From: a virus
Length of the DNA stretch: 28,854 nucleotides
Strand: one strand, 5' to 3'
IMG/VR virus record: IMGVR_UViG_3300042894_003656
Location: 1-28,854 of that record
Positions 65 through 28,854 of this stretch are shown piece after piece (positions within the stretch are counted from its first letter, which is position 1; each line of letters opens with the position of its first letter). The position numbers were made by a program, and so were the translations under genes. The notes under the pieces are model-generated. The model was not told the origin of the DNA. It ran no database searches and was given only the letters and a program-made list of their open reading frames with translations.

Positions 65-1414
65 ATGAGCATGAAAATAGTTATTGTAGGAGCAGGTGTT
101 GCAGGCATCAATGCAGCAACTAAATTGGTAGATAATGGTTATCCTGGAAAAGATATTACTATTATTGATATGGGTAAAGATCCCCACAACAGACTTCCTG
201 AAGAAGTAATGGAAGGAATGTTAGGAGCGGGAGGATGGAGTGATGGTAAATTAACTTACCACACAGCAATTGGTGGTCAATTATCAAAATACTGTGGTGA
301 AGAAAAAGCAATGAACTTGATGGATCAAGTGATTAGTAATTTTAGAAGATTCCACCCAAAACCTGAAGAAATATTTATGTCTAATCCAGAAGAAGAACCA
401 GAGTTCATTAAACCTTATTTTGGTTTAAGAATGTTTCCTGTATGGCATATTGGTAGTAATTACCTTCATGAAATTGCTAAAAATTGGTATCAATATTTAG
501 TTGATAAAGATGTAAACTTTCATTGGGAAACTAAAGTAACTAATATTGATTTTACTCAAGAACTTATAGTTTGTGATGTTTTAAACAGTGAGTTGAATTT
601 AGAAATAGATTATGAAGAACTTATATTTGCAGTAGGCAAATCAGGCATTGATTTTGCTCAACAATTAGCTAATCAATATCAACTACCAGATGAACCTAAA
701 TCAGTTCAAATTGGAGTTCGATTTGAAGCACCACAACATTATTTTCAAAAATTAATTGATATAAGTTATGATTTTAAGTTATATCAAAAGTTCGATGATG
801 TTAGTTTACGTTCATTCTGTACTAACAATAATGCTGCTTATGTTGCTGTAGAAGAAACATATGGTGATGTTACTTATAATGGACACGCTAAAAAAGGTGA
901 AGAATACAGAAATAATATGACTAACTTTGGCATCATTATGGAAATCAAAGGCATTGAAAATCCATTTGAATGGAGTCGTAATGTTGTGTCTAAATTACAA
1001 AAAGACGGAACAGGATTGTATTACAGTCCATCAAGAGTAGCAGGTATTACATCAGAAGGTGAAATGGTTAGTAGTCATCCTGTTGCAGAAACATCTCAAA
1101 TTGAAGAAGCTATGGGTGAATATTGGACTTACATTAAAAACTTCATTGATGATATGAATAAAGTATTTGATTTTGGTGATGATTGGGGAGTTTATGTACC
1201 TGAAGTAAAATATCTTTCACCTGAACCACTTGTTAAATATAAAAATTTGAGTCTTACTAAATATCCAAATGTTTATTTTGTAGGAGATGCATTATCAGCA
1301 AGAGGAATTACAGTAAGTGGTGCTCATGGAATTTATGTTGCTGAGTCTTTACTTAACGACAAATACCATCTAGAAGATGTATGGTATGATGGAGATTTAA
1401 CACTTTTTATTTAA
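65..1414 (+). CDS. FAD-dependent dehydrogenase, COG2509-like
   Basis: A 449-residue flavoprotein. An N-terminal Rossmann dinucleotide-binding loop GAGVAG sits at residues 9-14, the signature GAGGWSDGKL near residues 54-63, an AVGKSG segment mid-protein, and a C-terminal FAD-binding segment with FVGDALSARGI near residues 405-415. This combination matches the uncharacterised FAD-dependent dehydrogenases of COG2509. The length is close to full size and no key segment is broken. The substrate is unknown; a role as an auxiliary metabolic gene is inference. No signal peptide or membrane segment is visible, so it should be cytoplasmic. The reading frame is open from a TTG at 59, but ATG at 65 (or 71, giving MKIVIVG) is more plausible. 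It is followed after 17 bases by a small unknown gene and then a P-loop kinase. Such an enzyme is unusual next to phage packaging genes. Confidence 0.8.
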   Translation: MSMKIVIVGAGVAGINAATKLVDNGYPGKDITIIDMGKDPHNRLPEEVMEGMLGAGGWSDGKLTYHTAIGGQLSKYCGEEKAMNLMDQVISNFRRFHPKPEEIFMSNPEEEPEFIKPYFGLRMFPVWHIGSNYLHEIAKNWYQYLVDKDVNFHWETKVTNIDFTQELIVCDVLNSELNLEIDYEELIFAVGKSGIDFAQQLANQYQLPDEPKSVQIGVRFEAPQHYFQKLIDISYDFKLYQKFDDVSLRSFCTNNNAAYVAVEETYGDVTYNGHAKKGEEYRNNMTNFGIIMEIKGIENPFEWSRNVVSKLQKDGTGLYYSPSRVAGITSEGEMVSSHPVAETSQIEEAMGEYWTYIKNFIDDMNKVFDFGDDWGVYVPEVKYLSPEPLVKYKNLSLTKYPNVYFVGDALSARGITVSGAHGIYVAESLLNDKYHLEDVWYDGDLTLFI

Positions 1415-1431
1415 ACTATATACAATAAGTT

Positions 1432-1671
1432 ATGCAAACAATTAAAATGAAAACCGTTGATGGTAAAATTATTTATTATTTCAACAATGACGAACGTAGA
1501 GTACTACATAATTGGGATGGTCCTGCATTGATTCATTCAAAAGATCAAAAACAAAAACCAGAATATTATATTTTTGGAGAACGAAAAACTAAAGAACAGT
1601 GGGAAGAAGCTAAAAGAGACTTTAATGGCATTCCACCATCAAAAGATCCACGTTACGAACAATCAATGTAA
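1432..1671 (+). CDS. Small hypothetical protein
   Basis: This 79-residue protein has an N-terminal half of probable beta strands (MKTVDGKIIYYFNNDE), then a HNWDGPALIH segment and a YYIFGERKTKEQWEEAK segment. The pattern Asp-Gly-Pro-Ala followed by Tyr-Tyr-x-x-Gly and Glu-Gln-Trp recurs in small uncharacterised phage proteins, as far as I can recall; no function is established. It is charged and soluble, with no signal peptide. It lies between the flavoprotein and the kinase genes; its stop is 4 bases before the kinase ATG at 1676, which suggests co-transcription. ATG at 1432 is the only sensible start. I cannot assign a role. Confidence 0.65.
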   Translation: MQTIKMKTVDGKIIYYFNNDERRVLHNWDGPALIHSKDQKQKPEYYIFGERKTKEQWEEAKRDFNGIPPSKDPRYEQSM

Positions 1672-1675
1672 TAAT

Positions 1676-2206
1676 ATGAAAATAGGTTTAACAGGTACAA
1701 TGAGTGTAGGTAAAACTACATTGGTAAATGCTTTAAGAGCACATGATTTTTTTAAGAATTATGAAACTGCTACTGAACGAAGTAAATACTTAATGAGTTT
1801 AGGCATTCCTCTTAATACTGATAGTACTTTAAAAGGTCAATTTATATTTTTAGCAGAAAGAAGTACTGAATTGATATTTGATAATATTATTACAGACAGA
1901 ACTGTGTGGGATGTTTGTAGTTTTACAGCTTTATCTAAAAGTATTCCTAATAGTCAAAAGTATGATTTTGAACATGCTGCTATGAATCTTAAAGATGAAT
2001 ATGATTTAGTAGTATATGTGAAATCTGATGGGGTAGAAATAGAGGATAACGGAGTTCGTGAAACTAATAGTAAATACAGAGATCAAATTGATTACCAAAT
2101 TCAAAATCTTTTAGAAGCATATCCACCTAAAAATTTATTAGTAGTAAGTGGATCTACAGAAGAACGTGTGAAAGCTATATTTGAACATATTTATACTAAA
2201 ATGTAA
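1676..2206 (+). CDS. P-loop nucleoside/nucleotide kinase-like protein
   Basis: A 176-residue P-loop NTPase. The Walker A motif GTMSVGKT is at residues 7-14, directly after an N-terminal strand (MKIGLT). A Walker-B-like ITDR segment near residues 72-75 resembles the Asp-Arg pair of deoxynucleoside and thymidylate kinases. An Arg-rich lid-like segment (NGVRETNSKYRDQID) lies near residues 125-139. The arrangement fits small ATP-dependent kinases of the AAA_28/NadR-kinase or dNMP-kinase type; the substrate cannot be read from sequence. The frame extends upstream to 1574, but that would overlap the previous gene by almost 100 bases, and ATG 1676 places the P-loop at the usual position. It is closely coupled to both neighbours. 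A role in nucleotide or NAD metabolism during infection is inference. Confidence 0.7.
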   Translation: MKIGLTGTMSVGKTTLVNALRAHDFFKNYETATERSKYLMSLGIPLNTDSTLKGQFIFLAERSTELIFDNIITDRTVWDVCSFTALSKSIPNSQKYDFEHAAMNLKDEYDLVVYVKSDGVEIEDNGVRETNSKYRDQIDYQIQNLLEAYPPKNLLVVSGSTEERVKAIFEHIYTKM

Positions 2207-2695: not shown

Positions 2696-3037
2696 ATGAA
2701 AAATCCATCAAGTGTTTTGATTTTAGTTGTTATAATAGTTGTGTTATATTTTTGGTTTCATAAACCAATCCCACATTATTCTAGCGATAAAGAACAACAG
2801 TATTATAATACTATAGACAGTTTAAATAAAGAAATAGCTAAAGATAAACAAAAAATAGCTAGTTTAGACTCAGTAAAAAATGTTTTAGCTGCTCAAATTG
2901 CTAAAGATAAGAAAGATTTACAAGCCGCTGCTAAAAGAGCATCGGAATATAAAGAACAATATGAAGAAGAACGTAATCGTCTTAATGGTATGTCTAATGC
3001 TGACATTGCCAGTAAGTTCACAAAAACTTTTAAATGA
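2696..3037 (+). CDS. Inner-membrane-anchored coiled-coil protein, i-spanin candidate
   Basis: A 113-residue protein with one N-terminal membrane segment (about residues 7-21, VLILVVIIVVLYFWF), a short linker, and then a long, charged, probably coiled-coil region (residues 30-95; DKQKIASLDSVKNVLAAQIA, KKDLQAAAKRASEYKEQYEE). This is the usual layout of a phage inner-membrane spanin (Rz type), which with an outer-membrane partner disrupts the outer membrane at lysis. The next gene begins inside this one in the +1 frame (ATG 2961) and overlaps it by 77 bases, an arrangement typical of spanin pairs. No endolysin or holin gene lies beside it. Identification rests on topology and overlap, not on sequence family, so a different membrane role is possible. 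Confidence 0.5.
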   Translation: MKNPSSVLILVVIIVVLYFWFHKPIPHYSSDKEQQYYNTIDSLNKEIAKDKQKIASLDSVKNVLAAQIAKDKKDLQAAAKRASEYKEQYEEERNRLNGMSNADIASKFTKTFK

Positions 3038-3374
3038 TACTAATGTAGTAGTACCGGTTTCTGCTTTAAGGAATGCATTAGAGGTAAAAATAGAACGAGA
3101 CTATTTAAAAAAACAACTTACTATTAGTAGAGACACCATTAAAAGTCAGTCTAGTATTATTAAATCACAAGATTCTACAATAAAAGTTAGTGATATTCAA
3201 ATAGCTTTATATAAGAAAAATGAAACTAGACATGATAGTGTAGTTACTAGTTATAAAGGTGTGATAACAGAAAAAGAAAATCAAATAAGTGATTTACAAA
3301 CTAAATTAAGTAAATCCTATGTACTTACTGGTATAGTAGCGGCAATTAGTATATTTTTAATAGTATTGTTATGA
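2961..3374 (+). CDS. Secreted coiled-coil protein with C-terminal membrane anchor, spanin-partner candidate
   Basis: A 137-residue protein with an N-terminal signal peptide (MKKNVIVLMVCLMLTLPVSS, cleavage likely just before Gln), a periplasmic helical region rich in Lys/Ser/Asp/Gln, and a hydrophobic segment at the extreme C-terminus (about residues 119-137, LTGIVAAISIFLIVLL). I chose ATG 2961 because it gives a perfect signal peptide; an in-frame ATG at 2898 would bury it. It overlaps the upstream membrane gene by 77 bases in another frame and shares ATGA with the terminase start. Signal plus C-terminal anchor recalls single-molecule u-spanins, but no clear lipobox is visible: the only cysteine of the signal lies in VLMVC. 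Function as a lysis protein is inferred from context. Cleavage before Gln is common in Bacteroidota. Confidence 0.5.
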   Translation: MKKNVIVLMVCLMLTLPVSSQKLLNDTNVVVPVSALRNALEVKIERDYLKKQLTISRDTIKSQSSIIKSQDSTIKVSDIQIALYKKNETRHDSVVTSYKGVITEKENQISDLQTKLSKSYVLTGIVAAISIFLIVLL

Positions 3375-4999
3375 GCGAATTAAATGACATTCCAAAACAA
3401 CTTTCTATAAAAGAAGCTATTCAACAAGAACTTCTTAAATGTAAGCAAGATCCTATTTATTTTTGTAAAAAATATTACATGATTCAACACCCTACCAAAG
3501 GTAGAGTTCATTTTAATTTATATCCGTTTCAAGAAAGTGTATTAAGACTATTTTTAAAAAACAAATTTAGTTTAATAAATAAATCAAGACAATTAGGAAT
3601 TAGTACATTAAGTTCATCGTATGCTTTATGGCTTATGCTTTTTAATACTGACAAAAACGTATTGTGTATTGCTACTAAAACAGAAACAGCAAAAAACATG
3701 GTAACTAAGGTAAAATTCGGATATGATAATTTACCTAGTTGGATGAAAATTAAATCTTTAGAAAATAATAAACTTAGTATACGATTATCAAATGGCAGTC
3801 AGATGAAAGCCGTATCAGCTGCTGGTGATAGTGCGCGAAGTGAAGCCGTATCTTTGTTGCTTATTGACGAGGCCGCGTTTATCGATAATATTGAAGAGGT
3901 ATTCGTATCTGCCCAACAAACCTTGGCGACAGGTGGTGGGTGTATTGCTATGTCTACACCATATGGCACAGGAAACTGGTTCCACAGAACTTGGGTAAAA
4001 GCAGAAGAAGGTCAAAATAGCTTTTTGCCAATTAGATTACCATGGGACGTTCATCCTGAACGAAATCAAAGTTGGAGAGACCAACAAGATGTGGATTTAG
4101 GACCTAGAATGGCTGCTCAAGAATGTGATTGTGACTTTACAACTTCTGGTGACACAGCTATTGATCCTGCTATTTTAAACTGGTATTTAATTCAAGTAAA
4201 AGAACCTTTAGAACGTAGAGGTTTAGATGGTAATCTTTGGGTGTTTGAAAGACCAGACTATTCAAAAATGTATGCTGTTGTTGCTGATTGTGCTCGAGGA
4301 GATGGAAAAGATTACAGCGCTTTCCATGTTTTCGACATAGAAACTAATACTCAAGTAGCAGAATATAAAGGACAAATAGGAACTCGTGACTATGGTCATT
4401 TTTTAGTTGGTATAGCTAGTGAATATAATAATGCTTTGTTGGTTATTGAAAATGCTAACGTAGGATGGGACGTAGTTCAAACAGCAATTGAACGAGGTTA
4501 TCCAAACATGTATTATAGTCCAAGACAAGACGCAGCTCTTACTAATGTAGAAATGTACTTAAATAAATTTGACTCAGGACAAGGAATGGTACCTGGTTTT
4601 AGTACAACTTTACGTACTCGTCCATTAGTTATCGGAAAAATGATTAGTTATTTACATGAAAAAAGTGTAACTATTCAAAGTAAACGTACTTTAGAAGAAT
4701 TAAGAACATTTATTTGGAAACATGGTAAAGCTCAAGCACAAGATGGCTATCATGATGACTTAGTAATGGCTTTGGGTATTTGTATGTTTTTAAGAGACAC
4801 AAGTCTTAAATATAAACAAACAGGAGATCAATTAACTATAGCAAGTTTAGAAAATTTTGGAAAATCAACAACATCTGTAGGACCTAGTGTCTATCAAGGT
4901 GGAAGCTACAGAGGAATAGGCGGAGGAAATGGAGTTCCTAACCAATGGAATATGGATATTGGTAATGGACAGATGATGGATTTAACTTGGCTAATTTAA
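3371..4999 (+). CDS. Terminase large subunit, T4 gp17-like
   Basis: The DNA-packaging motor, 542 residues: an N-terminal ATPase that pumps DNA through the portal and a C-terminal nuclease that cuts concatemers. The ATPase has a variant Walker A SRQLGIST (residues 72-79), Walker B LLLIDEAA (162-169) and the coupling motif MSTPYGTG (194-201). The RNase-H-fold nuclease shows acidic residues at VADCARGDGKDYS (about 304-316), LLVIENANVGWD (356-367) and HDDLVMALG (461-469). The length is near that of the T4 family (about 600). The start overlaps the previous stop by ATGA. The portal gene follows after only 24 bases, so the tail sheath and tube genes that sit here in T4 are absent from this position. 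Confidence 0.95.
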   Translation: MSELNDIPKQLSIKEAIQQELLKCKQDPIYFCKKYYMIQHPTKGRVHFNLYPFQESVLRLFLKNKFSLINKSRQLGISTLSSSYALWLMLFNTDKNVLCIATKTETAKNMVTKVKFGYDNLPSWMKIKSLENNKLSIRLSNGSQMKAVSAAGDSARSEAVSLLLIDEAAFIDNIEEVFVSAQQTLATGGGCIAMSTPYGTGNWFHRTWVKAEEGQNSFLPIRLPWDVHPERNQSWRDQQDVDLGPRMAAQECDCDFTTSGDTAIDPAILNWYLIQVKEPLERRGLDGNLWVFERPDYSKMYAVVADCARGDGKDYSAFHVFDIETNTQVAEYKGQIGTRDYGHFLVGIASEYNNALLVIENANVGWDVVQTAIERGYPNMYYSPRQDAALTNVEMYLNKFDSGQGMVPGFSTTLRTRPLVIGKMISYLHEKSVTIQSKRTLEELRTFIWKHGKAQAQDGYHDDLVMALGICMFLRDTSLKYKQTGDQLTIASLENFGKSTTSVGPSVYQGGSYRGIGGGNGVPNQWNMDIGNGQMMDLTWLI

Positions 5000-5023: not shown

Positions 5024-6958
5024 ATGGATATATTTGACAAATTAAAACGACTCTTTAGTTCTGATGTAATTATTAGAAATGTAGGAGGAGACGAACTAAA
5101 AATACTAGATACAAACAATATTCAAACAACAGGGGTATTAGCAACAAATTCTGTTGTAGATAGATTTAGTAGAGTTTACACAACATCTGGCGTAGCAGCT
5201 TATGCTGGACAGATGGCTATAAATTATCCTTCACTTCGTCCTCAACTTTATAGTGATTATGAATCAATGGATACTGATGCTATCGTAAGTAGTGCTTTAG
5301 ATATTATAGCGGATGAATGTACATTAAGAAACGAATCAGGTGAAATGCTTCATATTCGTTCTAGTGACGAAAATATTCAAAAGATTTTATATAATTTGTT
5401 TTATGATGTATTAAATATTGAATTTAATTTGTGGTCATGGGCAAGAAATATGTGTAAATATGGTGATTTTTTCTTGAAGTTAGAAATTGCTGAGAAATTT
5501 GGAGTATATCAAGTTATACCATTTTCAGCATTTAATATTTTAAGAGAAGAAGGAATGGATCCTAAAAATCCATCATATGTACGATTTAAATATGATGCCG
5601 CCGCTGCTGCTGGTTATGGAACAACAGCTGGAGGATGGGCAAGTTATGGTGGAGGACAAAAAGATGAAGACGCATTTTATTTTGAAAATTATGAAATGGC
5701 TCATTTTAGACTATTGAGTGATCTTAATTATCTTCCATATGGTAGAAGTTATCTAGAGCCAGCTCGTAAATTATTTAAACAGTATATTTTGATGGAAGAT
5801 GCGATGTTAATTCACCGTATCACCAGAGCCCCAGATAGACGATTATTCTACATTAATATTGGTTCTATTCCTCCAGCAGAAGTAGAAAATTACATGCAAA
5901 AAATGGTGTCTAAACTTAAAAAGACTCCATTTATGGATGAAAAAACAGGCCAATATAATCTAAAATACAACGTAATGAATATGTTGGAAGATTATTATAT
6001 TCCTGTAAGAGGTAATGATACTACAACTAAAATTGATTCTGTAAAAGGATTAGAATATGATGGTATTAAAGACGTAGAATACTTACGAGAAAAATTATTT
6101 GCTGCTCTTAAAGTACCTAAAGCCTTTATGGGTTATGAAAAAGACTTAACTGGTAAAGCAACATTAGCTGCAGAAGATATTCGTTTTGCTCGTACAATTG
6201 AACGAATTCAACGTATATTAGTGAGTGAATTAACAAAAATTGCATTAGTTCACTTATATACTCAGGGTTACGACGGTGAAGCTATGACAAATTTTGAACT
6301 TAGCTTAACTACCCCTTCAATTATCTACGATCAAGAAAGAATTGCATTGTTAAAAGAAAAAGTTGAATTAGCTAAATCAATTCAAGAATCAGGATTAATG
6401 CCTACAGATTGGATTTATGACAACGTATTCCATTTCAGTGAAGATGAAATTGATGAGTATAGAGATTTAGTTATTGAAGATAAAAAACGTCAATTTAGAT
6501 ACAAACAAGTAGAAGAAGAAGGAAATGATCCAGCAGAAACTGGACAGGCATATGGAACACCACATCAATTAGCTACAATTTATGGTAAAGGAAGATACAC
6601 CCAAGTACCGAATGCTCCAACTGATATTCCTATGGGTTACGATGAAAACGAGCCTAATATTGTAAGATTACCTGGTAGACCTCAAGAAAAAACTAGTATT
6701 AAAGATACTCAACAAAGCCCATTCGGTAAAGATGCTTTAGGTCGTAAAGAATACTCATCATCTGATGATGGAGAGGACAAGTACGGTAAAACAAATCATA
6801 AAGGAGGTAGTCCTTTAGCTTTAGAAAGTAAAGCTCAATACTATAAAAATAAGTTTATGTTTGATATGATGCCTAAACCAGAAAGTAGAAAAATCCATTT
6901 ATTTGAAAGTAAAGACGACGATGGTATATTGAGTGAAGACAATATTATGCCTTTATAA
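5024..6958 (+). CDS. Portal protein, T4 gp20-like
   Basis: The 644-residue portal vertex protein: a dodecameric ring at one capsid vertex that nucleates prohead assembly and forms the DNA channel. Recognition rests on the gp20-type core: MDTDAIVSSALDIIADECT near residues 83-101, YLPYGRSYLEPARK near 240-253, and the highly characteristic RAPDRRLFYINIGSIPP near 271-287, followed by the stem/crown region LRDKLFAALKVPKAF-like (near 356-370). A Gly/Ala-rich insert (AAAAAGYGTTAGG, near 189-201) and a disordered, charged C-terminal tail after about residue 500 are additions to the core. The tail holds a PFG motif at residue 566 that recurs in three other head genes here. It is preceded by an ATATTTAT octamer. 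Confidence 0.93.
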   Translation: MDIFDKLKRLFSSDVIIRNVGGDELKILDTNNIQTTGVLATNSVVDRFSRVYTTSGVAAYAGQMAINYPSLRPQLYSDYESMDTDAIVSSALDIIADECTLRNESGEMLHIRSSDENIQKILYNLFYDVLNIEFNLWSWARNMCKYGDFFLKLEIAEKFGVYQVIPFSAFNILREEGMDPKNPSYVRFKYDAAAAAGYGTTAGGWASYGGGQKDEDAFYFENYEMAHFRLLSDLNYLPYGRSYLEPARKLFKQYILMEDAMLIHRITRAPDRRLFYINIGSIPPAEVENYMQKMVSKLKKTPFMDEKTGQYNLKYNVMNMLEDYYIPVRGNDTTTKIDSVKGLEYDGIKDVEYLREKLFAALKVPKAFMGYEKDLTGKATLAAEDIRFARTIERIQRILVSELTKIALVHLYTQGYDGEAMTNFELSLTTPSIIYDQERIALLKEKVELAKSIQESGLMPTDWIYDNVFHFSEDEIDEYRDLVIEDKKRQFRYKQVEEEGNDPAETGQAYGTPHQLATIYGKGRYTQVPNAPTDIPMGYDENEPNIVRLPGRPQEKTSIKDTQQSPFGKDALGRKEYSSSDDGEDKYGKTNHKGGSPLALESKAQYYKNKFMFDMMPKPESRKIHLFESKDDDGILSEDNIMPL

Positions 6959-9026: not shown

Positions 9027-10127
9027 ATGAGTAATCCTAATAAATCTTACTTTGATAAATACATCACTCCCGTAGTTCGTGAAATAGACAAAGTCAATGT
9101 TTACGAATTTGAAAATGGGATGGATTATGAATTAACAACTTCTGGAAAAACCATTAACGTTGATACTATCAAAGAAGCCCAAAGTAAAGTTTTGAAAAAT
9201 CTTAAAAAAGATCCTAATTTCTACACCAACATGTTAGTAAATGAAACTATTAAAATGGTAGGTGAGTATGGATCTGGTAAAAAGCCTGGAGTAAAAAGTA
9301 CTGCTAAAAGTGCAGAAGCCGTAAAAAAAGACGGTAAAATGCCTAAAGCTGATAAACAAGACGCTCCATTTGGTCTTAAAGACGAAGTAAAAGGTAAATA
9401 CAAGTCTTCTGGAATGGAACCAGCTAAAAAAGTTCCTGGTTCATTAAATGAGGGATATGATGTTTATACACTCAATCCAGCATCTTATTTAGCCGCTATG
9501 GATCATAATGGACAACTTATTAAAAGTGTTAGAGATGCTATTAAAGGAGATGTTGCTTTAAAGAATATTGTTGTTAAAAAATTAAAACAATACGCTGAAA
9601 AACACGACAAAGACGAAGAAATTCAAGACAAAGTAAAGAAAGCTGTTAAAACAATAAATGATGCTCCAATGCGTGAGTCTAAAGGTATTCCATCCGAACA
9701 GTTAACAAAGTTGAAACAGTTAGTATCTAAATTAAAAGAAGAAGGTAAAAAAGATTTAGCTAGTGCTTTAGAAAGACTTCTTGATAAAGGTGTAGAAGAA
9801 GGAATGGATTACACAATTAGTAATCAAGAAACCGCTGATAAACCAGGTCCTGGATTTTATAATCAAGGATCATTGAGTGGTTTTGAAGAAGACATAAACG
9901 AAGACGTAAACGTAAAAGATTCTAGAAAAATTAAGTTAACTCCTACTACTAAAAATCAAATTTTGACTTTAGTTCATGAAATGGCTAAATCAATGAAAGA
10001 AAATAATGCTTATGATTTTAAAACTTCATCTGGAAATACTATAACAAAATCATTTAGTAGTGATAATGCTGCTAGACAGTTTGATGCAGATAACCAAAAT
10101 ATTAATGGTTTTAAGAAAATCCAATGA
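9027..10127 (+). CDS. Hypothetical prohead-region protein
   Basis: A 366-residue, Lys- and Asp/Glu-rich protein that I do not recognise. The N-terminus (residues 1-70) looks folded (VYEFENGMDYELTTSGKTIN, then a helical KEAQSKVLKNLKKD). A low-complexity middle contains DAPFGLKDEVKGKYKSS (from about residue 112), sharing the PFGL motif with the 7841 gene and the scaffold. A helical domain follows (SEQLTKLKQLVSKLKEEGKK near 230), then a C-terminal KIKLTPTTKNQILTLVHEMA region. Position between portal and protease suggests a minor head or core component. The stop overlaps the protease start by ATGA, implying translational coupling. No signal, membrane segment or enzyme motif is seen. Confidence 0.65.
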   Translation: MSNPNKSYFDKYITPVVREIDKVNVYEFENGMDYELTTSGKTINVDTIKEAQSKVLKNLKKDPNFYTNMLVNETIKMVGEYGSGKKPGVKSTAKSAEAVKKDGKMPKADKQDAPFGLKDEVKGKYKSSGMEPAKKVPGSLNEGYDVYTLNPASYLAAMDHNGQLIKSVRDAIKGDVALKNIVVKKLKQYAEKHDKDEEIQDKVKKAVKTINDAPMRESKGIPSEQLTKLKQLVSKLKEEGKKDLASALERLLDKGVEEGMDYTISNQETADKPGPGFYNQGSLSGFEEDINEDVNVKDSRKIKLTPTTKNQILTLVHEMAKSMKENNAYDFKTSSGNTITKSFSSDNAARQFDADNQNINGFKKIQ

Positions 10128-10753
10128 GCAAACAAGTTTTAATAGAATATTTAGCATTTAAACCTTCACCTCAGTCTCTTAATGAGGCTAAGATGAATCC
10201 TACTAAAAATTTAGTGGTAGAAGGTATTGTACAACGTGCAGATGCTAAAAATGAAAATGGTCGTGTTTACCCTAAAACAATACTTCACAGAGAAGTAGAA
10301 AAATACATTGCAGGCCCGATTGCCCAAAACAGAGCTTTGGGTGAATTAGATCACCCAGAGTCTTCTGTTATTAGTTTAAAAAATGTTTGTCATAATATTA
10401 AACAATTGTGGTGGGAAGGCGATGATTTATTTGGTCGTATTGAAGTTCTTAACACACCTAGTGGAAATATTTTAAAAGACTTATTATTAAATAACATTAC
10501 TGTAGGAATTAGTTCAAGAGGTATGGGTAGTGTTAAACAATTGGGAGAAAATACCGTAGAAGTACAAGATGATTTTGATTTAGTATGTTGGGATTTTGTA
10601 AGTACACCAAGTACACATGGTGCTTACATGAAACCAGTAAGTTTAGCTGAAAGTAAACAATATACTCAACAAAATTCTAACCAATATTCAAAAATCAACT
10701 CACTGATTACAGATATTATTTGTAATCAAACGGGAGTTTGTTGTATAAAATAA
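10124..10753 (+). CDS. Prohead maturation protease, T4 gp21-like
   Basis: A 209-residue serine protease expected to sit in the prohead core, where it degrades scaffold and trims the capsid protein before DNA packaging. The family signature is clear: a VVEGIVQRADAKNENGRVYP start to the domain (residues 31-50), the catalytic His in GELDHPES (H77), and the catalytic Ser in TVGISSRGMG (S130/S131). This matches the T4 gp21 family (MEROPS S80). The length agrees with T4 gp21 (212). It overlaps the upstream gene by four bases and lies directly before scaffold and capsid genes, the T4 order. Expected cleavage is after Leu/Ile-x-Glu; candidate sites are noted in the capsid protein and the 7841 product. 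Confidence 0.92.
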   Translation: MSKQVLIEYLAFKPSPQSLNEAKMNPTKNLVVEGIVQRADAKNENGRVYPKTILHREVEKYIAGPIAQNRALGELDHPESSVISLKNVCHNIKQLWWEGDDLFGRIEVLNTPSGNILKDLLLNNITVGISSRGMGSVKQLGENTVEVQDDFDLVCWDFVSTPSTHGAYMKPVSLAESKQYTQQNSNQYSKINSLITDIICNQTGVCCIK

Positions 10754-20652: not shown

Positions 20653-23631
20653 ATGCCAAACTGGAAAAAACTGATTGTATCGGGGTCGGATGCCTCATTA
20701 AATTCGTTAAATGTTACAAATAATGTAACCGCTCAATCCTTCACAGGTTCTTTTTCGGGATCTTTTACTGCTCCTGGAGCAACAACACAGATAGTTTATA
20801 ATAATGGCGGTGTTTTATCCGCAGACTCTGGATTTGTTTATAGTGGAAGTAACGTAGGTATTGGTACCTCTAGCCCAACATTTAAATTTAATTTAGAAGA
20901 TACCGGAGCAACTTATGTAGCACAGTTTAAAGGGGGTAATAGTACCTATATTATTAGTGGAGATACTTCACTACCAGGAGAAAGCGGACTTAACGCTAGA
21001 AACTCATCTGGACAACTATTTTTAGGGATAGGCCCATCAGGAGATGCATACTTTTCAGGCACATCAGGAGCTACTTCTCTAGGTTTTTATTTAGGAGGTA
21101 CAAATAGAATAGCTGTAAATTCTGCAGGTAATGTAGGTATTGGCACCACTAGCCCAACTCAGAAACTTGATGTTATGGGTAGAGTTTATGTAAGTCAAAG
21201 CTTAAGCGTTGGAACTACATCAACAGCAGGCACAGGACTAACAGTATTTGGAAGTACAGTACTGTTAAGTTTTGCAGAAATACAACAGGGTAATGCACTC
21301 TACTTTTTTAGTTCTGGAAACACCGCTTATTCAACTATTACACAAGTAAGTAACGATTTAATACTAACCCCACAGAGTAACGTTGGTATTGGAACTTCAA
21401 GCCCATCTGCAACTTTAGAAGTAAACGGTAACGTTAAAGCAACCTCATTCACAGGTTCATTCTCAGGATCAATTACACATGCAGTAAGTGCTAGCTATGC
21501 TTTAAGTTCTTCTTATGCATTAACCTCAACAACTGCTTCTTATGCTTTAACAGCATCATATGTTAACCCATTAAACCAAGACTTAATACTAACAGGTTCC
21601 TTTATTGCAACCGGCGGAGTAACAGCCTCTAATGCTTTAATTAACGGAAACTTAACAGTAATAGGAACTGCTTCATTTACATATACAACAGCATCATATG
21701 TCAACGTAGGTGCATCTACCATTACATTAAATACAGATAATCCTGCAGTTAGATTTGGTGGAATAAATGTTGTTGACTCTGGTTCATTCGGAACATCATC
21801 AACAGGTTCATTATTGTGGGACTCAGAAAAGAATAGATGGATTTATTCTAATCCTTCTGGTTCAACTTACGACGGAGGTTTATTGATTTCCGGTCCTAGA
21901 AACACTACAGGATTAGGAAACGAACAAGGTACTACTTTAAATGCCTTAATGAAAGGCCAAGGAGGTGATCATATCACTTCTTCAGGAATGTTTGAAGATT
22001 CTTCTGGAAATGTTGGTGTAGGTACTGCAAGCCCATCAGCTAAATTTGAAGTAGTAGGTAACGTTAAAGCAACCTCATTCACAGGTTCATTCTCCGGATC
22101 AGTTACAGCACCAGGTTCAACTACTCAGATTGTTTATAATGATAACGGTGTATTAGCCGCAAGTAGCGGATTAGTATACAGCGGATCAAACGTCGGCATT
22201 GGTATTTCATCACCAACAGAGAAATTACACATTGTAAGTTCTGCAACAGGAAACCAGTTTGGACGTATAACAGCTACAGATTCAAATTCATCAGCAGCCT
22301 GGGTTGCACAAAACGACCAAGGAGATAATGTAGTATACCGTGTATTTGGTTCTGGAGTAAGTGGAACTCAAATGGGAGCTGCACTCGGAAGAAGTGCTTC
22401 TTTACTTGCTAACTTAGGAGGTTCAGGAGTATTCTTATTAGGTACTTTCTCAAATACAAACTTTATTCTTGGTACAAATAATACCGAGAATATGCGTATT
22501 ACGACTGCAGGTAACGTTGGTATTGGTACGACTAGCCCTGGTGAGGTACTAGAGGTTGTTGGTAACATTAGAGCAAACGTCTCTAATGGTGGAGGATTTA
22601 TGCTGACCGGAGCTAGTGCTTCGGGATTAGTTAGAGCAGGTGCTACCGGTTTAGCTTTAAGGACAAACACCACAGATAGGTTAACTGTTGATAACAGCGG
22701 GAACGTAGGTATTGGTACTACAAGTCCACAGTATAAGTTAGATGTTAATGGAGAAATAAGAATACCTAATAGCAACTATATCTATATAAACAATACGGCC
22801 GGTACAGCTATCCAGGCTATTGGTATGGATTCAGGCGATAACTTAGTTATAAATACTGCTACAGGTGGTGATTTATATTTAAAATCAGGAGGTAGTACTG
22901 TATTTAGAGCTATAAATAATGGTGATATAAATATCGGTGGTTTGAGTGCTACTGCTTCACCACTTGTAAAAATACTTAATAACGGAAATGTAGGTATAGG
23001 TACTACTAGTCCCGGCTACAAACTCGAAGTAGTAGGTGCAGTTTCAGCCTCAACATACTACGGAGACGGTTCTAACTTAACCAATATTGGATCAGGTTCA
23101 ATATCAGCAGCAGGTTCTGATGGTCAACTACAATACAACAACAGCGGACTATTTGGAGGTGCATCACGTCTTTATTATAATGATTCTACCAACAGAGTTG
23201 GTATTGGAACATCAAGCCCCGGATACGATTTAGACGTTTCTGGTTCAGCAAGAGTACAAGACAGATTAAGAGTAGGTGTTGTAAATACAGGAAACGGTGT
23301 AATTCATCAATCATCAGACGCAACCATTAATCCATCAAGTTCAACTATTGTTTGGTCAGTTCCAGGAAGTGCAGGAATTTGTGCATTTATCGAATACTAT
23401 GTATTTAATAGTAACACAGGAGCTTCACAACGTGCGGGTAATATTGTAACAACTTGGAATTCAGCAGGAACTCCTCAAATTACACATACTGAAACCACAA
23501 CCCCGGACATAGGAACTACAGCTCTTGTTACGTTTACTACCTCGATAACACTAGGAGGTGATCCTCAATTGATTGCAACTAATACTAGTGGAGATGTTTG
23601 GTATATGATTATGAATTATAGATATTTCTAA
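20653..23631 (+). CDS. Long tail fibre protein with repeated GIGT modules
   Basis: A 992-residue fibre. It starts MPNWKKLIVSGSDASLNSLN, sharing the WKK-IVSGS tag with the 18844 fibre. It carries nine copies of the NVGIGT(S/T)SP-x-x-K/Y-L-x-V motif (near residues 69, 163, 246, 455, 513, 623, 682, 780 and 849), each ending a beta-rich shaft module. A repeated APG(A/S)TTQIVYN segment precedes two copies, and GNVKATSFTGSFSGS occurs twice. Such modules are typical of phage fibres that often end in a peptidase S74 chaperone, but here the last 120 residues form a different beta domain (IVWSVPGSAGICAFIEYYVF to DVWYMIMNYRYF), probably the receptor-binding tip. No catalytic motif is visible. Trimeric fold is expected for the family type, not shown. 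Confidence 0.82.
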   Translation: MPNWKKLIVSGSDASLNSLNVTNNVTAQSFTGSFSGSFTAPGATTQIVYNNGGVLSADSGFVYSGSNVGIGTSSPTFKFNLEDTGATYVAQFKGGNSTYIISGDTSLPGESGLNARNSSGQLFLGIGPSGDAYFSGTSGATSLGFYLGGTNRIAVNSAGNVGIGTTSPTQKLDVMGRVYVSQSLSVGTTSTAGTGLTVFGSTVLLSFAEIQQGNALYFFSSGNTAYSTITQVSNDLILTPQSNVGIGTSSPSATLEVNGNVKATSFTGSFSGSITHAVSASYALSSSYALTSTTASYALTASYVNPLNQDLILTGSFIATGGVTASNALINGNLTVIGTASFTYTTASYVNVGASTITLNTDNPAVRFGGINVVDSGSFGTSSTGSLLWDSEKNRWIYSNPSGSTYDGGLLISGPRNTTGLGNEQGTTLNALMKGQGGDHITSSGMFEDSSGNVGVGTASPSAKFEVVGNVKATSFTGSFSGSVTAPGSTTQIVYNDNGVLAASSGLVYSGSNVGIGISSPTEKLHIVSSATGNQFGRITATDSNSSAAWVAQNDQGDNVVYRVFGSGVSGTQMGAALGRSASLLANLGGSGVFLLGTFSNTNFILGTNNTENMRITTAGNVGIGTTSPGEVLEVVGNIRANVSNGGGFMLTGASASGLVRAGATGLALRTNTTDRLTVDNSGNVGIGTTSPQYKLDVNGEIRIPNSNYIYINNTAGTAIQAIGMDSGDNLVINTATGGDLYLKSGGSTVFRAINNGDINIGGLSATASPLVKILNNGNVGIGTTSPGYKLEVVGAVSASTYYGDGSNLTNIGSGSISAAGSDGQLQYNNSGLFGGASRLYYNDSTNRVGIGTSSPGYDLDVSGSARVQDRLRVGVVNTGNGVIHQSSDATINPSSSTIVWSVPGSAGICAFIEYYVFNSNTGASQRAGNIVTTWNSAGTPQITHTETTTPDIGTTALVTFTTSITLGGDPQLIATNTSGDVWYMIMNYRYF
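21427..22094 (+). repeat. 38-base exact direct repeat pair within fibre gene
   Basis: Positions 21427-21464 and 22057-22094 are identical over 38 bases and encode the repeated GNVKATSFTGSFS segment. Both follow a GIGT/GVGT module. The copies are 630 bases apart in frame, so recombination between them would delete or duplicate a whole number of codons (210). Confidence 0.85.
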
Positions 23632-23675
23632 TATTTATTATTAAACATCATCCCGGATAGTGAAGGGTCAAACAT
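23631..23675 (+). promoter_or_regulatory. ATATTTAT octamer and short leader of collagen-like fibre gene
   Basis: The octamer at 23631-23638 overlaps the previous stop and ends 37 bases before ATG 23676. The leader contains CCCGGATAGTGAAGGG (23652-23667), with only a weak 3-base CCC/GGG stem, and AAGGG at 23663-23667 could serve as a weak Shine-Dalgarno 8 bases before the ATG. Confidence 0.4.
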
Positions 23676-26600
23676 ATGAGCAATGAATTTATAATTAAAA
23701 ATGGCTTTATAGCCAAAGGAGATTCAACCGTAACCGGATCATTAACAGCAACCGGTGGAATCACAGGATCATTATCAGGTAACGCAACATCAGCTTCTTA
23801 TGCTGTAACTGCCTCATATGCTTTCTTTGCCCAAACACCAACATCGCAAGGTACCCAAGGAACACAAGGTTTAACAGGACCACAAGGTACTACTGGACCT
23901 CAAGGTACAACTGGTGCACAAGGAACTACCGGAACACAAGGACCTACCGGACCTCAAGGAACAGACGGTACTCAAGGAACAACAGGTGCACAGGGTACTA
24001 CAGGTGCACAGGGTACAACTGGTACACAAGGACCAACTGGTCCACAGGGAGCTACAGGTGCACAGGGTACAACAGGACCTCAGGGTACAACAGGTGCTCA
24101 AGGTACAACTGGTACACAGGGTACTCAAGGTATTCAAGGTATTCAAGGTACTAATGCAACAACATCAATAACAAACAACGTAAATAATTACGTAGTAACA
24201 GCAACTGGAGGTCCAACACCATTTAATGGTGAAGCAAATTTACAATTTGACGGAAATACATTGACTATTTCTGGATCTGGATCAACATTATTTGATGTTT
24301 TAGGATCTCAAGGTCAATTATTCTCTGTAACAGATGATTTAACCGGAACTTTATTTACTGTAAGTGATATTTCAGGTTTACCTATTTTACAGGTAGATTC
24401 AACAGATACTGTTACTATGGGTACTTTTGGATTAAATACCTTAGTAGTTTCAGGTTCTCAAATTTACACAAACCAATTACCTAGTTCAGCAGACACAACT
24501 GTTGTTACATTTAATACAACAACTAAAAAATTAGGTTACAACACAGTAGCAGGTCCTACTGGACCGCAAGGTGCTACTGGAGCCCAGGGAACAACTGGAG
24601 CACAAGGTACAACTGGAACTCAAGGTCCTACAGGACCTCAAGGAACTACCGGAACACAAGGTACAACGGGTGCTCAAGGTACTACCGGAACACAAGGTCC
24701 TACAGGCCCACAAGGAACAGATGGTACTCAGGGAACAACAGGAGCTCAAGGTCCTACTGGTCCTCAAGGTACAACTGGCGCTCAGGGAACAACTGGTACG
24801 CAAGGTCCAACAGGGCCTCAAGGAACAACAGGTACTCAAGGTCCTACAGGACCCCAAGGAACAACTGGTACTCAAGGTACAACAGGTCCGCAAGGAACTA
24901 CTGGTGCTCAAGGAACAACTGGAGCACAAGGTACTCAAGGAACACAAGGTATTCAAGGTACTCAAGGTATCTTTGGACCCGTAGCCGGTGCCGCTAACCA
25001 AGTAGTTTATAAAGATGGATCAAATAACCCAGCAGGTTCAAATAGCTTTGTGTTTGATGGAACTAATGTCGGTATAGGAACTTCTAGTCCAAGTGCCCTA
25101 CTGCACGTATCACAACCATCTGCAAATACTATTTTCAGATTAGGTAATAACGCATCATACGACCAGTTTATATACTTCAATGGTGGTAATGATTGGTCGT
25201 TAGGTATGGATTATTCTAATTCTAATGCTTTTGTATTATCCAACGCTTCATCTATCGGTACTAATGATAGATTAGTAGTTACAACTGGAGGTAATGTAGG
25301 TATTGGTACTACTAGCCCAACTGCTAAATTAGAAATTGCAGGATTTTCCACAGGAGCAGGATTAAAATTAAACTACGGTAATTCCTCTGGTACAATTGAA
25401 GCTGTAAACTTTATAGCTAATGGTGGTGCTAATGGTGTTATAGGCATGCAAATGGTAAGTGTTGGAGTAGGAGATTTATGGTTAGGAGGATCAGGAGGAA
25501 GGACATTAACCTTATATAGAGATGGTAACGTCGGAATAGGTACAACAACCCCAACTGCAAAACTCCATATCTCAGGTTCAGCCGGAACCGAATCAGCATT
25601 ATTAGTATACAAATCAGGATCAACAGTAGTAGATATTCAAGGTTCACAAGGTCAATTATTTTCAATTACAGATGATCTAACCGGAACCTTATTTTCAGTA
25701 AATAACATTACTGGTTTACCAGTATTAGAAGTTGATGCAACCAACAAAATAACTATGGGTACTTATGGTGCCAATACTTTAGTTGTTTCTGGTTCTCAAC
25801 TTTATGCAAGTCAATTAACAAACGACAGTGAATTAACTGTTGTAACATATAACACAACAACTAAAAAGTTAAGTTATAATACTATTGCTGGTCCTACTGG
25901 TCCACAAGGTGCAACAGGAGCTCAAGGAACAACAGGAACACAAGGTTCAACTGGTCCACAAGGTACTACGGGTACACAGGGTCCTACAGGTCCACAGGGT
26001 ACAACCGGTGCACAAGGTACTACTGGAACACAAGGACCAACTGGTCCTCAAGGTACAACTGGTGCGCAAGGAACCACAGGAACACAAGGTCCTACAGGTC
26101 CTCAAGGAACTACAGGAACACAAGGTACAACTGGTACGCAAGGACCAACAGGTCCACAAGGTACTACTGGAACACAAGGTACAACTGGTGCTCAAGGCAC
26201 GACAGGTACGCAAGGTCCTACAGGACCTCAAGGAACATCTGCTGCTACTGCAATTACTAATAACGTAGATAATTACATAGTAACTGCAACAGGTAATGGT
26301 CCTACACCGTTTAATGGTGAATCAAATTTAACATTTAATGGAACTACATTAGGATTAACAGGTGTTCTTCAATTTCCTCAAAACCCTCTCGGTCAAACTT
26401 ACGGTAATGGTGTTTCCCTCGTTCCTCCATACATGATTACACAAGGAGCAGGTGACAGTGATGCAATAAGATTGTATGCTGAATCTGCAGCCACTAACCA
26501 AGTAAGTATGGTGTTTGAGGTAAACGATGATATCGAAACTGCTGGTAGTGAGTGGATATGGAGAAATAAACAAACATACACTTCTTATCTTGCAACCACC

Positions 26601-28854
26601 CCTATGCGTCTTAGCGGTGATGGAACATTATATATCTCAAATGCACTTTCAGCAACAACAGCAGTATTGTCTTCAGTTCCTTTAGGTACAACTGAAACTA
26701 ACATCTTAGTTATTGATGGTGGTGGTAATGTAAAATATAGATCAAATTTAAGTTTACAAGGAACACAAGGACCAACGGGACCTCAAGGTGCAACAGGACC
26801 TCAAGGTACCACTGGTACTCAAGGCCCTACAGGACCTCAAGGTACCACTGGAACTCAAGGTACAACAGGAACACAAGGTCCTACAGGCCCACAAGGTACT
26901 ACTGGCTCACAGGGAACAACTGGAACACAAGGACCTACAGGACCTCAAGGTACTACTGGTACTCAAGGAACGACTGGAACACAAGGTCCAACAGGGCCTC
27001 AAGGAACTACAGGTGCACAAGGTGCAACTGGACCACAAGGTACTCAAGGTACACAAGGTATTTTTGGTCCTGTAGCAGGATCGGCAAACCAAGTAGTTTA
27101 TAAGGACGGATCAAATAACCCAGCAGGTTCAAATAACTTTGTATTTAATGGAACTAATGTGGGTATAGGTACCCCAACTCCAACTGCTAAATTACAAGTA
27201 TCTGGCTCATCTAACGTAGTTAACATTGTTGGTTCAGGAAGTATTAGTAATACTACTTTATTCTCAGTAGATGGTAATAATGGTAGATTATTTGAAGTAT
27301 CAGATGACCTATCAGACTCTTTAATGTCTGTAAATACTATTGCTGGTTTACCAGTATTAGAAGTATTTGCAAACAATACTGTAGTAATGGGTACTTTTGG
27401 ACAGAATACATTAGTAGTATCGGGTTCAAATTTATTCGCCAATCAATTACCTAGTACAGCAGATACTGTAGTAGTAACATATAATACATCGACCAAGAGA
27501 CTTGGTTATAACACAGTAGCAGGTCCTACCGGACCAACTGGACCTCAAGGAACAACAGGTCCTCAAGGTACTACTGGTACACAAGGTCCAACAGGACCGC
27601 AAGGAGGAACCGGACCGCAAGGTACTACTGGTACTCAAGGTCCAACAGGTCCACAGGGTACAACAGGAACGCAAGGTACAACTGGTGCTCAAGGTGCAGT
27701 AGGTCCTTTAGGACCTCCAGGTCCACAAGGATCAACAGGCCCTGTCGGCCCTCCTGGTTCACAAGGATCAACAGGCCCTCTAGGCCCTCCAGGCCCACAA
27801 GGATCAACAGGTCCACTAGGCCCTCCAGGTCCACAAGGAACAACAGGTCCTGTCGGACCTCCTGGCTCTCAAGGTACAACAGGTCCTTTAGGTCCTCCAG
27901 GTCCACAAGGATCAACAGGTCCACTAGGCCCTCCAGGACCACAAGGTGCAGTAGGTCCCGTAGGCCCTCCAGGTTCACAAGGTCCAACAGGTCCCGTAGG
28001 CCCTCCAGGTTCACAAGGTACTACTGGTTCACAAGGACCAACAGGACCTCAAGGAACTAGTGCTGCTACGGCAATTACCAACAATGTAAACAATTATCTT
28101 GTAACAGCTACTGGAAACGGACCTACTCCATTCAATGGTGAATCTAATTTAACATTTGATGGTTCAAAATTAACCGTAACCGGTGCTGGAGGAACAGTAC
28201 TTGATGTTCAAGGTTCAGCAGGTCAATTATTCTCAGTAACGGATAGTTTAGTAGGAACATTATTCTCAGTAAATGATGCAACCGGTATTCCAATTTTATC
28301 TGTAGATTCAACAGATACTGTTACTATGGGTACTTTTGGATTAAATACTTTAGTAGTAACTGGATCTCAAATTTATGCTCATCAATTACCAAATAATGGT
28401 GATTTAACAGTAGTAACTTACAATACATCAACTAAAAAATTAGGATACAATACTGTTGCAGGTCCTACAGGTCCTACAGGACCAACAGGTGCCCCAGGAG
28501 CTCAAGGTACAACAGGAACTGCTGGAAGCCCAGGAGGCCCTGGTCCACAAGGTACAACAGGTACAGCAGGAAGCCCCGGAGGACCAGGTCCACAAGGTAC
28601 AACAGGTACAGCAGGATCACCAGGCGGACCAGGTCCACAAGGTACAACAGGTACAGCAGGATCACCAGGAGGTCCTGGACCTCAAGGTGCGACAGGAACT
28701 GCTGGAAGTCCAGGCGGACCAGGTCCACAAGGTACAACAGGAACTGCTGGAAGCCCAGGAGGCCCTGGACCTCAAGGTACAACAGGAACTGCTGGAAGCC
28801 CAGGAGGCCCTGGACCTCAAGGTACAACAGGAACTGCTGGAAGCCCAGGAGGCC
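23676..28854 (+). CDS. Giant collagen-like tail fibre protein, partial (runs off right end)
   Basis: The frame from ATG 23676 stays open to the last base: at least 1726 residues, no stop in the window. Residues 1-57 ([20 protein letters not shown], then [19 protein letters not shown]) form a beta-type N-terminus with segments like those in the 20653 fibre. Then come six uninterrupted Gly-X-Y blocks: 23850-24152, 24552-24974, 25890-26231, 26760-27065, 27522-28052 and 28461 onwards. X/Y are mainly Thr, Gln, Pro and Ala. Globular segments separate them; four carry NVGIGT motifs and four end in the same 80-residue module. Collagen-like triple helices are known in phage fibres, where they make stiff trimeric rods. 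A receptor tip is presumably encoded beyond the window. Antisense frames through the repeats are artefacts. Confidence 0.88.
23850..24152 (+). repeat. Collagen-like block I
   Basis: Thirty-three uninterrupted Gly-X-Y triplets plus Gly-Thr, mainly [12 protein letters not shown] and GPT, ending GTQ-GIQ-GIQ. It follows the N-terminal domain directly and is succeeded by the first globular segment starting NATTSITNN. Confidence 0.9.
24312..24551 (+). repeat. 80-codon pre-collagen module, copy 1
   Basis: First of four equal-length modules (others at 25650-25889, 27282-27521 and 28221-28460), each exactly 240 bases and each directly followed by the first Gly of a collagen block. Shared landmarks: [10 protein letters not shown] start, a T(V)[14 protein letters not shown] middle, and a [12 protein letters not shown] end. 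Confidence 0.85.
24552..24974 (+). repeat. Collagen-like block II
   Basis: Forty-seven Gly-X-Y triplets without a break, again [12 protein letters not shown]-rich with one GTD, ending [12 protein letters not shown]. The following globular segment begins [15 protein letters not shown]. Confidence 0.9.
25650..25889 (+). repeat. 80-codon pre-collagen module, copy 2
   Basis: Same length and landmarks as copy 1: [10 protein letters not shown] start, [17 protein letters not shown] in the middle and [12 protein letters not shown] end, directly before collagen block III. Confidence 0.85.
25890..26231 (+). repeat. Collagen-like block III
   Basis: Thirty-eight Gly-X-Y triplets followed by GTS and the segment [12 protein letters not shown], which matches the segments after blocks I and V. 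Confidence 0.9.
26760..27065 (+). repeat. Collagen-like block IV
   Basis: Thirty-four Gly-X-Y triplets ending GTQ-GTQ-GIF. It is preceded by a different sequence ([20 protein letters not shown]) rather than the 80-residue module, and is followed by [15 protein letters not shown] as after block II. Confidence 0.9.
27282..27521 (+). repeat. 80-codon pre-collagen module, copy 3
   Basis: Same length as the other copies; the most divergent start ([14 protein letters not shown]), then [18 protein letters not shown] and [11 protein letters not shown], directly before block V. Confidence 0.85.
27522..28052 (+). repeat. Collagen-like block V
   Basis: Fifty-nine Gly-X-Y triplets, the longest complete block. 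Its second half, 27702-28025, is nine 12-residue (36-base) units of the form GP(L/V)-GPP-G(P/S)Q-G(S/T/A/P)(T/V), the only part of the fibre with GPP triplets. The first half uses the same GTT/GTQ/GPQ repertoire as blocks I-IV. Confidence 0.9.
28221..28460 (+). repeat. 80-codon pre-collagen module, copy 4
   Basis: Same length as the other three copies: [10 protein letters not shown] start, [18 protein letters not shown] in the middle, [12 protein letters not shown] end, directly before block VI. It shares a 47-base identical run (28302-28348) with copy 1 (24393-24439). Confidence 0.85.
28461..28854 (+). repeat. Collagen-like block VI with 45-base tandem repeats, incomplete
   Basis: From 28506 the DNA consists of 45-base units encoding [15 protein letters not shown]: seven complete copies (28506-28820) and a partial eighth cut by the window end. 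Nucleotide identity between units is highest in the last three copies, suggesting recent duplication. The preceding 45 bases encode [15 protein letters not shown]. Confidence 0.9.

Follow-up and report, generated by a model that had tools for sequence, protein, structure and literature searches.

The three leading genes of the viral DNA analysed here, for a flavoprotein, a small conserved protein and a P-loop kinase, are moderately likely to be a displaced accessory part of phage 7-deazaguanine DNA modification, in which the flavoprotein would replace the QueF/formyltransferase branch. The window, i.e., the whole stretch analysed, is the 28,854-base IMG/VR virus record IMGVR_UViG_3300042894_003656, a fragment carrying a T4-like late region. 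The features considered are the following:

65..1414, + strand: flavoprotein, putative COG2509-like FAD-dependent oxidoreductase of a phage-specific branch, 449 aa; ATG at 65
1432..1671, + strand: small conserved gene, 79 aa; motif LHNWDGPAL...EYY...G
1676..2206, + strand: AAA_28 nucleoside/nucleotide-type P-loop kinase of the DpdA-cassette family, 176 aa; ATG at 1676
3371-4999: terminase large subunit
5024-6958: portal, T4-type

Gaps of 17 bases (flavoprotein to small gene) and 4 bases (small gene to kinase) separate the three genes, and both the coordinates and the AAA_28 match agree with an earlier, sequence-only reading that had described a small gene and then a nucleoside/nucleotide-type kinase closely 3' of the flavoprotein. 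The small gene (1432-1671) has no match in Pfam, PHROG or NCBIfam. Beyond the kinase come an unannotated gene, an overlapping spanin-like pair, the terminase and the portal. The ORF at 2696-3374 is a membrane-anchored coiled coil with an Rz-like spanin match (phrog_89, E 1.6e-4), overlapped by a second ORF in nested-spanin style, with no obvious lipobox there by eye; very long repetitive ORFs of tail-fibre type, including collagen-like GTQG repeats, occupy 20653-28853. Que genes are absent from the 28.9-kb window, and its relatives supply the pathway genes.

Two sets of relatives bear on the linkage of the block. A scan of IMG/VR with the flavoprotein returned 172 relatives among 173 pattern matches, and 80 loci were taken; a second set, also of 80 loci, was anchored on the terminase, which avoids the bias of selection by flavoprotein. 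In the set used for linkage counts (L001-L158, L219 and L226-L300, less four duplicates of contigs already included), 165 loci extend at least 3 kb past the flavoprotein, and 162 of them have the kinase downstream on the same strand; the small gene is present in 144 of the 165 and keeps the same place in most relatives. Among terminase-anchored loci, flavoprotein and kinase are both found in 22/22 with at least 4 kb upstream and in 28/29 with at least 3 kb upstream. The gap between flavoprotein and kinase has a median of 472 bases (186 loci), exceeds 1 kb in 42 and is 9.7 kb at most. Because they are linked across these loci, the flavoprotein-kinase pair belongs to the core gene content of a large uncultured clade, and the linkage therefore supports a shared role, in line with the earlier suggestion of a tight block that could serve one pathway; the genes do travel together elsewhere and are not, as that suggestion would have had to concede, unlinked companions of a single recent capture. 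Contigs binned as Flavobacteriales suggest Flavobacteriia hosts for the window's clade.

Sequence and model together indicate that the flavoprotein is a divergent phage branch of COG2509-like FAD-dependent oxidoreductases, with FAD binding predicted. The full-length ORF at 65-1414, called COG2509-type in the sequence-only reading, is confirmed, and profile and fold show it to be COG2509-like. It matches Pyr_redox_2 in Pfam (E 8e-9) and phrog_12409 'dehydrogenase' (E 1.4e-22), and its profile aligns with that of cellular relatives at an hhalign probability of 100 (E 5.5e-47, 411 columns). For its AlphaFold model (mean pLDDT 82), the nearest structures are VP0956 (3nlc; 382 residues aligned with Z 25.9, rmsd 4.3 A and 20% identity) and a BFVD entry labelled COG2509. 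Pfam FAD-depend_C (PF21688), which we take to be linked to COG2509, has no match above cut-off in the window, and the protein is therefore termed a COG2509 relative, not an orthologue.

The N-terminal FAD-binding GxGxxG and a GAGxxSDGK motif are present, and the invariant motifs are GxG, GAGxWSDGK, SFC (Cys252) and YNGH. QueF binds its substrate through a cysteine, and by analogy Cys252 could do the same; this residue is invariant in all three groups compared, in cellular proteins equally, and so is no proof of a QueF-like role. The flavoprotein has no QueF family match and is proposed at most as a functional stand-in. An alignment of 48 homologues, with a mean column identity of 68%, excludes chance. 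A PDB sequence search gave nothing useful for the flavoprotein, the kinase or the DpdA-like protein described below, and the gene neighbours of cellular COG2509 proteins, read by eye, gave no functional clue.

Such a flavoprotein had been thought rare in phage structural regions. This is true of annotated phages, in which the matches are only 20 Campylobacter records and 10 unverified faecal contigs (about 24-28% identity), but not of IMG/VR, where a broader scan finds at least 559 relatives. The ten faecal 'Bacteriophage sp.' matches look partly bacterial; one of the four examined has, by eye, a long ORF resembling a bacterial metabolic gene, and these four contain no Que, DpdA or kinase match. 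In a phylogeny that includes bacterial homologues, the flavoproteins of Fletchervirus, of contig L199 and of the window's clade form one supported group (100/99) apart from the cellular proteins, in a tree whose long branches make attraction possible. Recent capture from a host is rejected: distant matches (E 7e-9 to 3e-10) occur in 4 of 198 host-phylum genomes, a count that excludes the query's own phage-like contig, and the phage proteins have a branch of their own.

FolE, QueD, QueE and QueC make 7-cyano- (or 7-amido-) 7-deazaguanine from GTP. A 176-kb contig (G001), which matches the window at 96% identity in the flavoprotein and 98% in both terminase and portal, carries FolE, QueE, QueD, ThyX, a phosphoribosyltransferase and QueC together, as found by profile search; among 12 long related contigs QueC passes the cut-off in 9, and the three without it are 66-74-kb pieces. 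G001 also encodes a DpdA-like protein of 259 aa, which is homologous, at 31-33% identity, to Immutovirus gp206, annotated as a DNA-guanine transglycosylase, and to a hypothetical protein of 14 Campylobacter records; it has no Pfam or PDB match, its identity as DpdA being that of the depositor's label of gp206. The DpdA-like profile matches 12 of the 15 flavoprotein contigs of at least 100 kb. Upstream of the flavoprotein in G001 (136.4-145 kb; L237) is a run of small proteins whose beginnings resemble one another (MIKLxDILxE...); this could be an N-terminal tag, common to internal capsid proteins, that directs their targeting.

None of the 15 flavoprotein contigs has QueF above cut-off (three give weak matches, one of which falls on FolE), as against 10 of the 22 DpdA contigs, the other 12 being without it above cut-off; profile search finds the flavoprotein in 0 of these 22. 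The mutual exclusion may be ancestry, because it comes from one clade, to which all 15 flavoprotein contigs belong, plus L199. Profiles of QueF and formyltransferase find no match in G001-G004 and clear matches in Immutovirus. The Que genes lie about 60 kb from the block in the window's clade, which counts against a shared pathway.

On the evidence of homologues the kinase is assigned to 7-deazaguanine DNA modification, and so, less strongly, is the flavoprotein; the 'redox or cofactor metabolism' first proposed for the block was too general. The kinase is of the AAA_28 family (E 4.1e-13; model pLDDT 89.9), with a P-loop GxxxxGKT and a downstream TDR motif. In Immutovirus its homologue sits inside the Que/DpdA cluster, between formyltransferase and QueF, and in Campylobacter phages CP21 and CP220 it directly adjoins the DpdA-like gene; for CP220 and CPt10, one paper reports that dADG takes the place of 100% of the dG (PMC8306585).

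An alignment of DpdA-like proteins, run against IMG/VR, found at least 280 relatives among at least 600 pattern matches, and in the 80 loci taken, profiles detect the kinase in 44 and the flavoprotein in 0. Neighbours of DpdA in the 58 strong loci, counted within 6.5 kb on the same strand and with families checked on one member each, are formyltransferase (47), FolE (42), QueF (40), the kinase (39), QueE (35), QueD (32), QueC (30) and a phosphoribosyltransferase-like gene (15). The kinase is within 2.5 kb downstream of DpdA in 36 of the 49 strong loci with enough flank, and 15 of the 17 DpdA loci of at least 20 kb have it no more than 3 kb from DpdA, with none having it anywhere else; the weaker DpdA loci have it in 5/22. 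The family is taken here as a standing component of DpdA cassettes in many phage lineages. The position beside packaging genes, to which the earlier reading drew attention, is real as regards the nearby terminase and portal but is not a clue to function, the kinase being found in Que/DpdA clusters of other phages. Streptomyces phages account for 66 of 85 kinase-matching records (about 27% identity among the matches listed), and because the gene cluster around it there shows no annotated Que genes in the one stretch read, the family label alone is no proof of the pathway. In Streptomyces phage Karimac (L313) a distant relative (9824-10447) is found next to a methyltransferase, with the terminase three genes downstream and no annotated Que genes around it in the stretch read.

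The flavoprotein is found directly among Que/DpdA genes in a single contig, L199 (6.5 kb, from a Bacilli MAG), which carries on one strand and in this order QueC (PF06508, E 9e-71), the flavoprotein (56% identity), a 74-aa ORF, the kinase (42%) and a DpdA-like gene (28%). Structural genes were not found in L199 by tblastn, and its gene order differs from that of the window's clade. In Campylobacter phage NCTC12673, by contrast, the flavoprotein homologue gp8 (25% identity) lies next but one to a dUTPase gene, and profile search detects no kinase, DpdA-like, FolE, QueC, QueD, QueE or QueF match. Since this homologue stands without Que genes, the link of the flavoprotein to the pathway is weaker than that of the kinase, and its role there is proposed with less confidence. 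The DNA of NCTC12673 is reported to contain deoxyinosine, and this phage too therefore replaces guanine; the texts reached by a literature search gave no settled answer on the source of the Fletchervirus deoxyinosine.

A possible though doubtful alternative is that only the kinase acts in the 7-deazaguanine pathway, the flavoprotein being a general redox enzyme (e.g., for deoxynucleotide or cofactor supply) fixed here by happenstance. This would suit NCTC12673, where the flavoprotein occurs near a dUTPase gene without Que, DpdA or kinase genes, the dADG-type phages CP21 and CP220, which have the kinase and no flavoprotein match in the stretches searched, and the 22 DpdA contigs, all without the flavoprotein. 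It fits poorly with the L199 cassette, with the kinase linkage of 162/165, with the guanine-replacing base that NCTC12673 also has, and with a conservation of the flavoprotein on par with FolE and QueE. In a ranking of 61 reciprocal-best-hit genes of four long contigs by mean identity of G001 to G003 and G004, FolE (78%), the flavoprotein (71%) and QueE (66%) are at the top, with the terminase sixth and the kinase tenth. In all 21 terminase-anchored loci with a terminase below 70% identity and a near-full flavoprotein, conservation of the flavoprotein exceeds that of the terminase (medians 68.8% and 61.5% identity). Rank does not reflect constraint alone, because FolE and QueE are also exchanged between phages. 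The QueE of G003 (76308-77078) is 95% identical to that of Immutovirus (30670-31443), the terminases being only about 57-60% identical, which points to recent exchange between phages.

That the block consists of three unrelated genes, chance neighbours kept together in a late region that is never rearranged, is quite improbable. The whole late region is indeed syntenic, and flavoprotein and kinase are 2-10 kb apart in some relatives; however, the pair is also linked in L199 despite the different gene order there, and a flavoprotein of only 43-47% identity holds the same place in L425, L453, L457 and L458, which have a kinase of ordinary identity and, in three of them, a terminase likewise. This flavoprotein is the product of either in-place replacement or fast divergence. 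When the search was widened to flavoproteins outside the clade, it yielded nothing but divergent forms at this locus.

Very improbable is a nicotinamide riboside kinase in a block for NAD(P) supply or post-defence NAD restoration, with the flavoprotein using NAD(P)H: the kinase is most similar in structure to NadR riboside-kinase domains (8x7f, Z 16.8; 6gyf, Z 16.6), it matches phrog_3462 NMN adenylyltransferase (E 9e-6), and many relatives have an upstream large protein with an N-terminal stretch that is NMNAT-like by eye, but deoxyadenosine kinase scores level with these (Z 16.5) and thymidylate kinase is close (15.4), the large protein has no NMNAT match in Pfam, and distant phages pair the kinase in their genomes with DpdA and not with an NAD gene. 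The kinase, a single domain of 176 aa, has no fused NMN adenylyltransferase domain of NadR type. Thymidine hypermodification combines a 5-hydroxymethyluracil DNA kinase with an FAD enzyme, and this reading was set aside once QueC and the Que cluster appeared in relatives.

For the preferred reading, a part in 7-deazaguanine modification, gene presence, order and fold are observed, and we infer every chemical step and substrate as follows. The phage would make a 7-deazaguanine base from GTP, and the DpdA-like transglycosylase would swap guanines in replicated DNA for this base. The flavoprotein would reduce or oxidise this base, or its precursor, and so stand in for the QueF reductase and the formyltransferase. 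The kinase would serve the base exchange; in the simplest case it would phosphorylate a nucleoside or nucleotide released or used there, and at a guess it might act in salvage of the guanine displaced by DpdA, after a phosphoribosyltransferase. Modified in this way, phage DNA would be protected from host nucleases, and the late-gene position beside lysis and packaging genes would fit action on newly replicated DNA. A bolder version, which is unlikely, makes the phage flavoproteins a new guanine-base enzyme that removes the 2-amino group, yielding hypoxanthine (the deoxyinosine of Fletchervirus) and, here, a 7-deaza-inosine-type base never described in DNA; in a milder form, the flavoprotein may make another undescribed 7-deazaguanine derivative that replaces the QueF/formyltransferase branch.

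If the preferred reading is true, a widespread phage group, almost entirely uncultured, hypermodifies guanine by way of a flavoenzyme branch, and the base in its DNA is probably not yet described. The AAA_28 kinase, usually labelled 'thymidylate kinase', would then be a standing partner of the DpdA cassette, and the flavoprotein a testable candidate for making the deoxyinosine DNA of Campylobacter Fletchervirus. Work by Cui from 2023 is said to treat phage 7-deazaguanine DNA modification; within the texts covered by a full-text search, whose scope lay outside Cui 2023 and Crippen 2019, among them PMC6884629, PMC12783734, PMC8713573, PMC8306585, PMC8056088, PMC8651126 and PMC13329287, no paper was found that ties the kinase or the flavoprotein to this pathway.

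The nearest annotated phage homologues of the flavoprotein are the gp8 group of Fletchervirus NCTC12673, which joins the window's clade in the tree but differs from it in the deoxyinosine reported for its DNA, a gp8 of only 25% identity and no Que, DpdA or kinase genes. The cellular COG2509 flavoproteins and VP0956 (3nlc) have fold and core motifs in common with the phage flavoprotein; in the set compared, the cellular proteins measure about 455-520 aa and some extend further at the N-terminus, and the phage branch (449 aa here) is separate. By terminase, the nearest cultured relative is Immutovirus (Flavobacterium phage immuto; 57%), which like the window's clade has the terminase, portal, Que genes, DpdA homologue and kinase family. 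Unlike that clade, it carries QueF and formyltransferase, has the kinase inside the Que cluster and is without the flavoprotein (genome-wide tblastn; profile search of stretches). Phage 7-deazaguanine DNA modification uses FolE, QueD, QueE, QueC and DpdA (Hutinet 2019, PMC6884629). The window's clade shares with such systems the same precursor genes, a DpdA-type homologue as in Immutovirus and Firehammervirus and the travelling kinase, but differs in that no QueF or formyltransferase was found (G001-G004), in its COG2509-like flavoprotein and in a kinase that lies beside the terminase. Phage 7-deazaguanine modification itself is thus already known; what is new is the proposed flavoenzyme branch and the relocated kinase.
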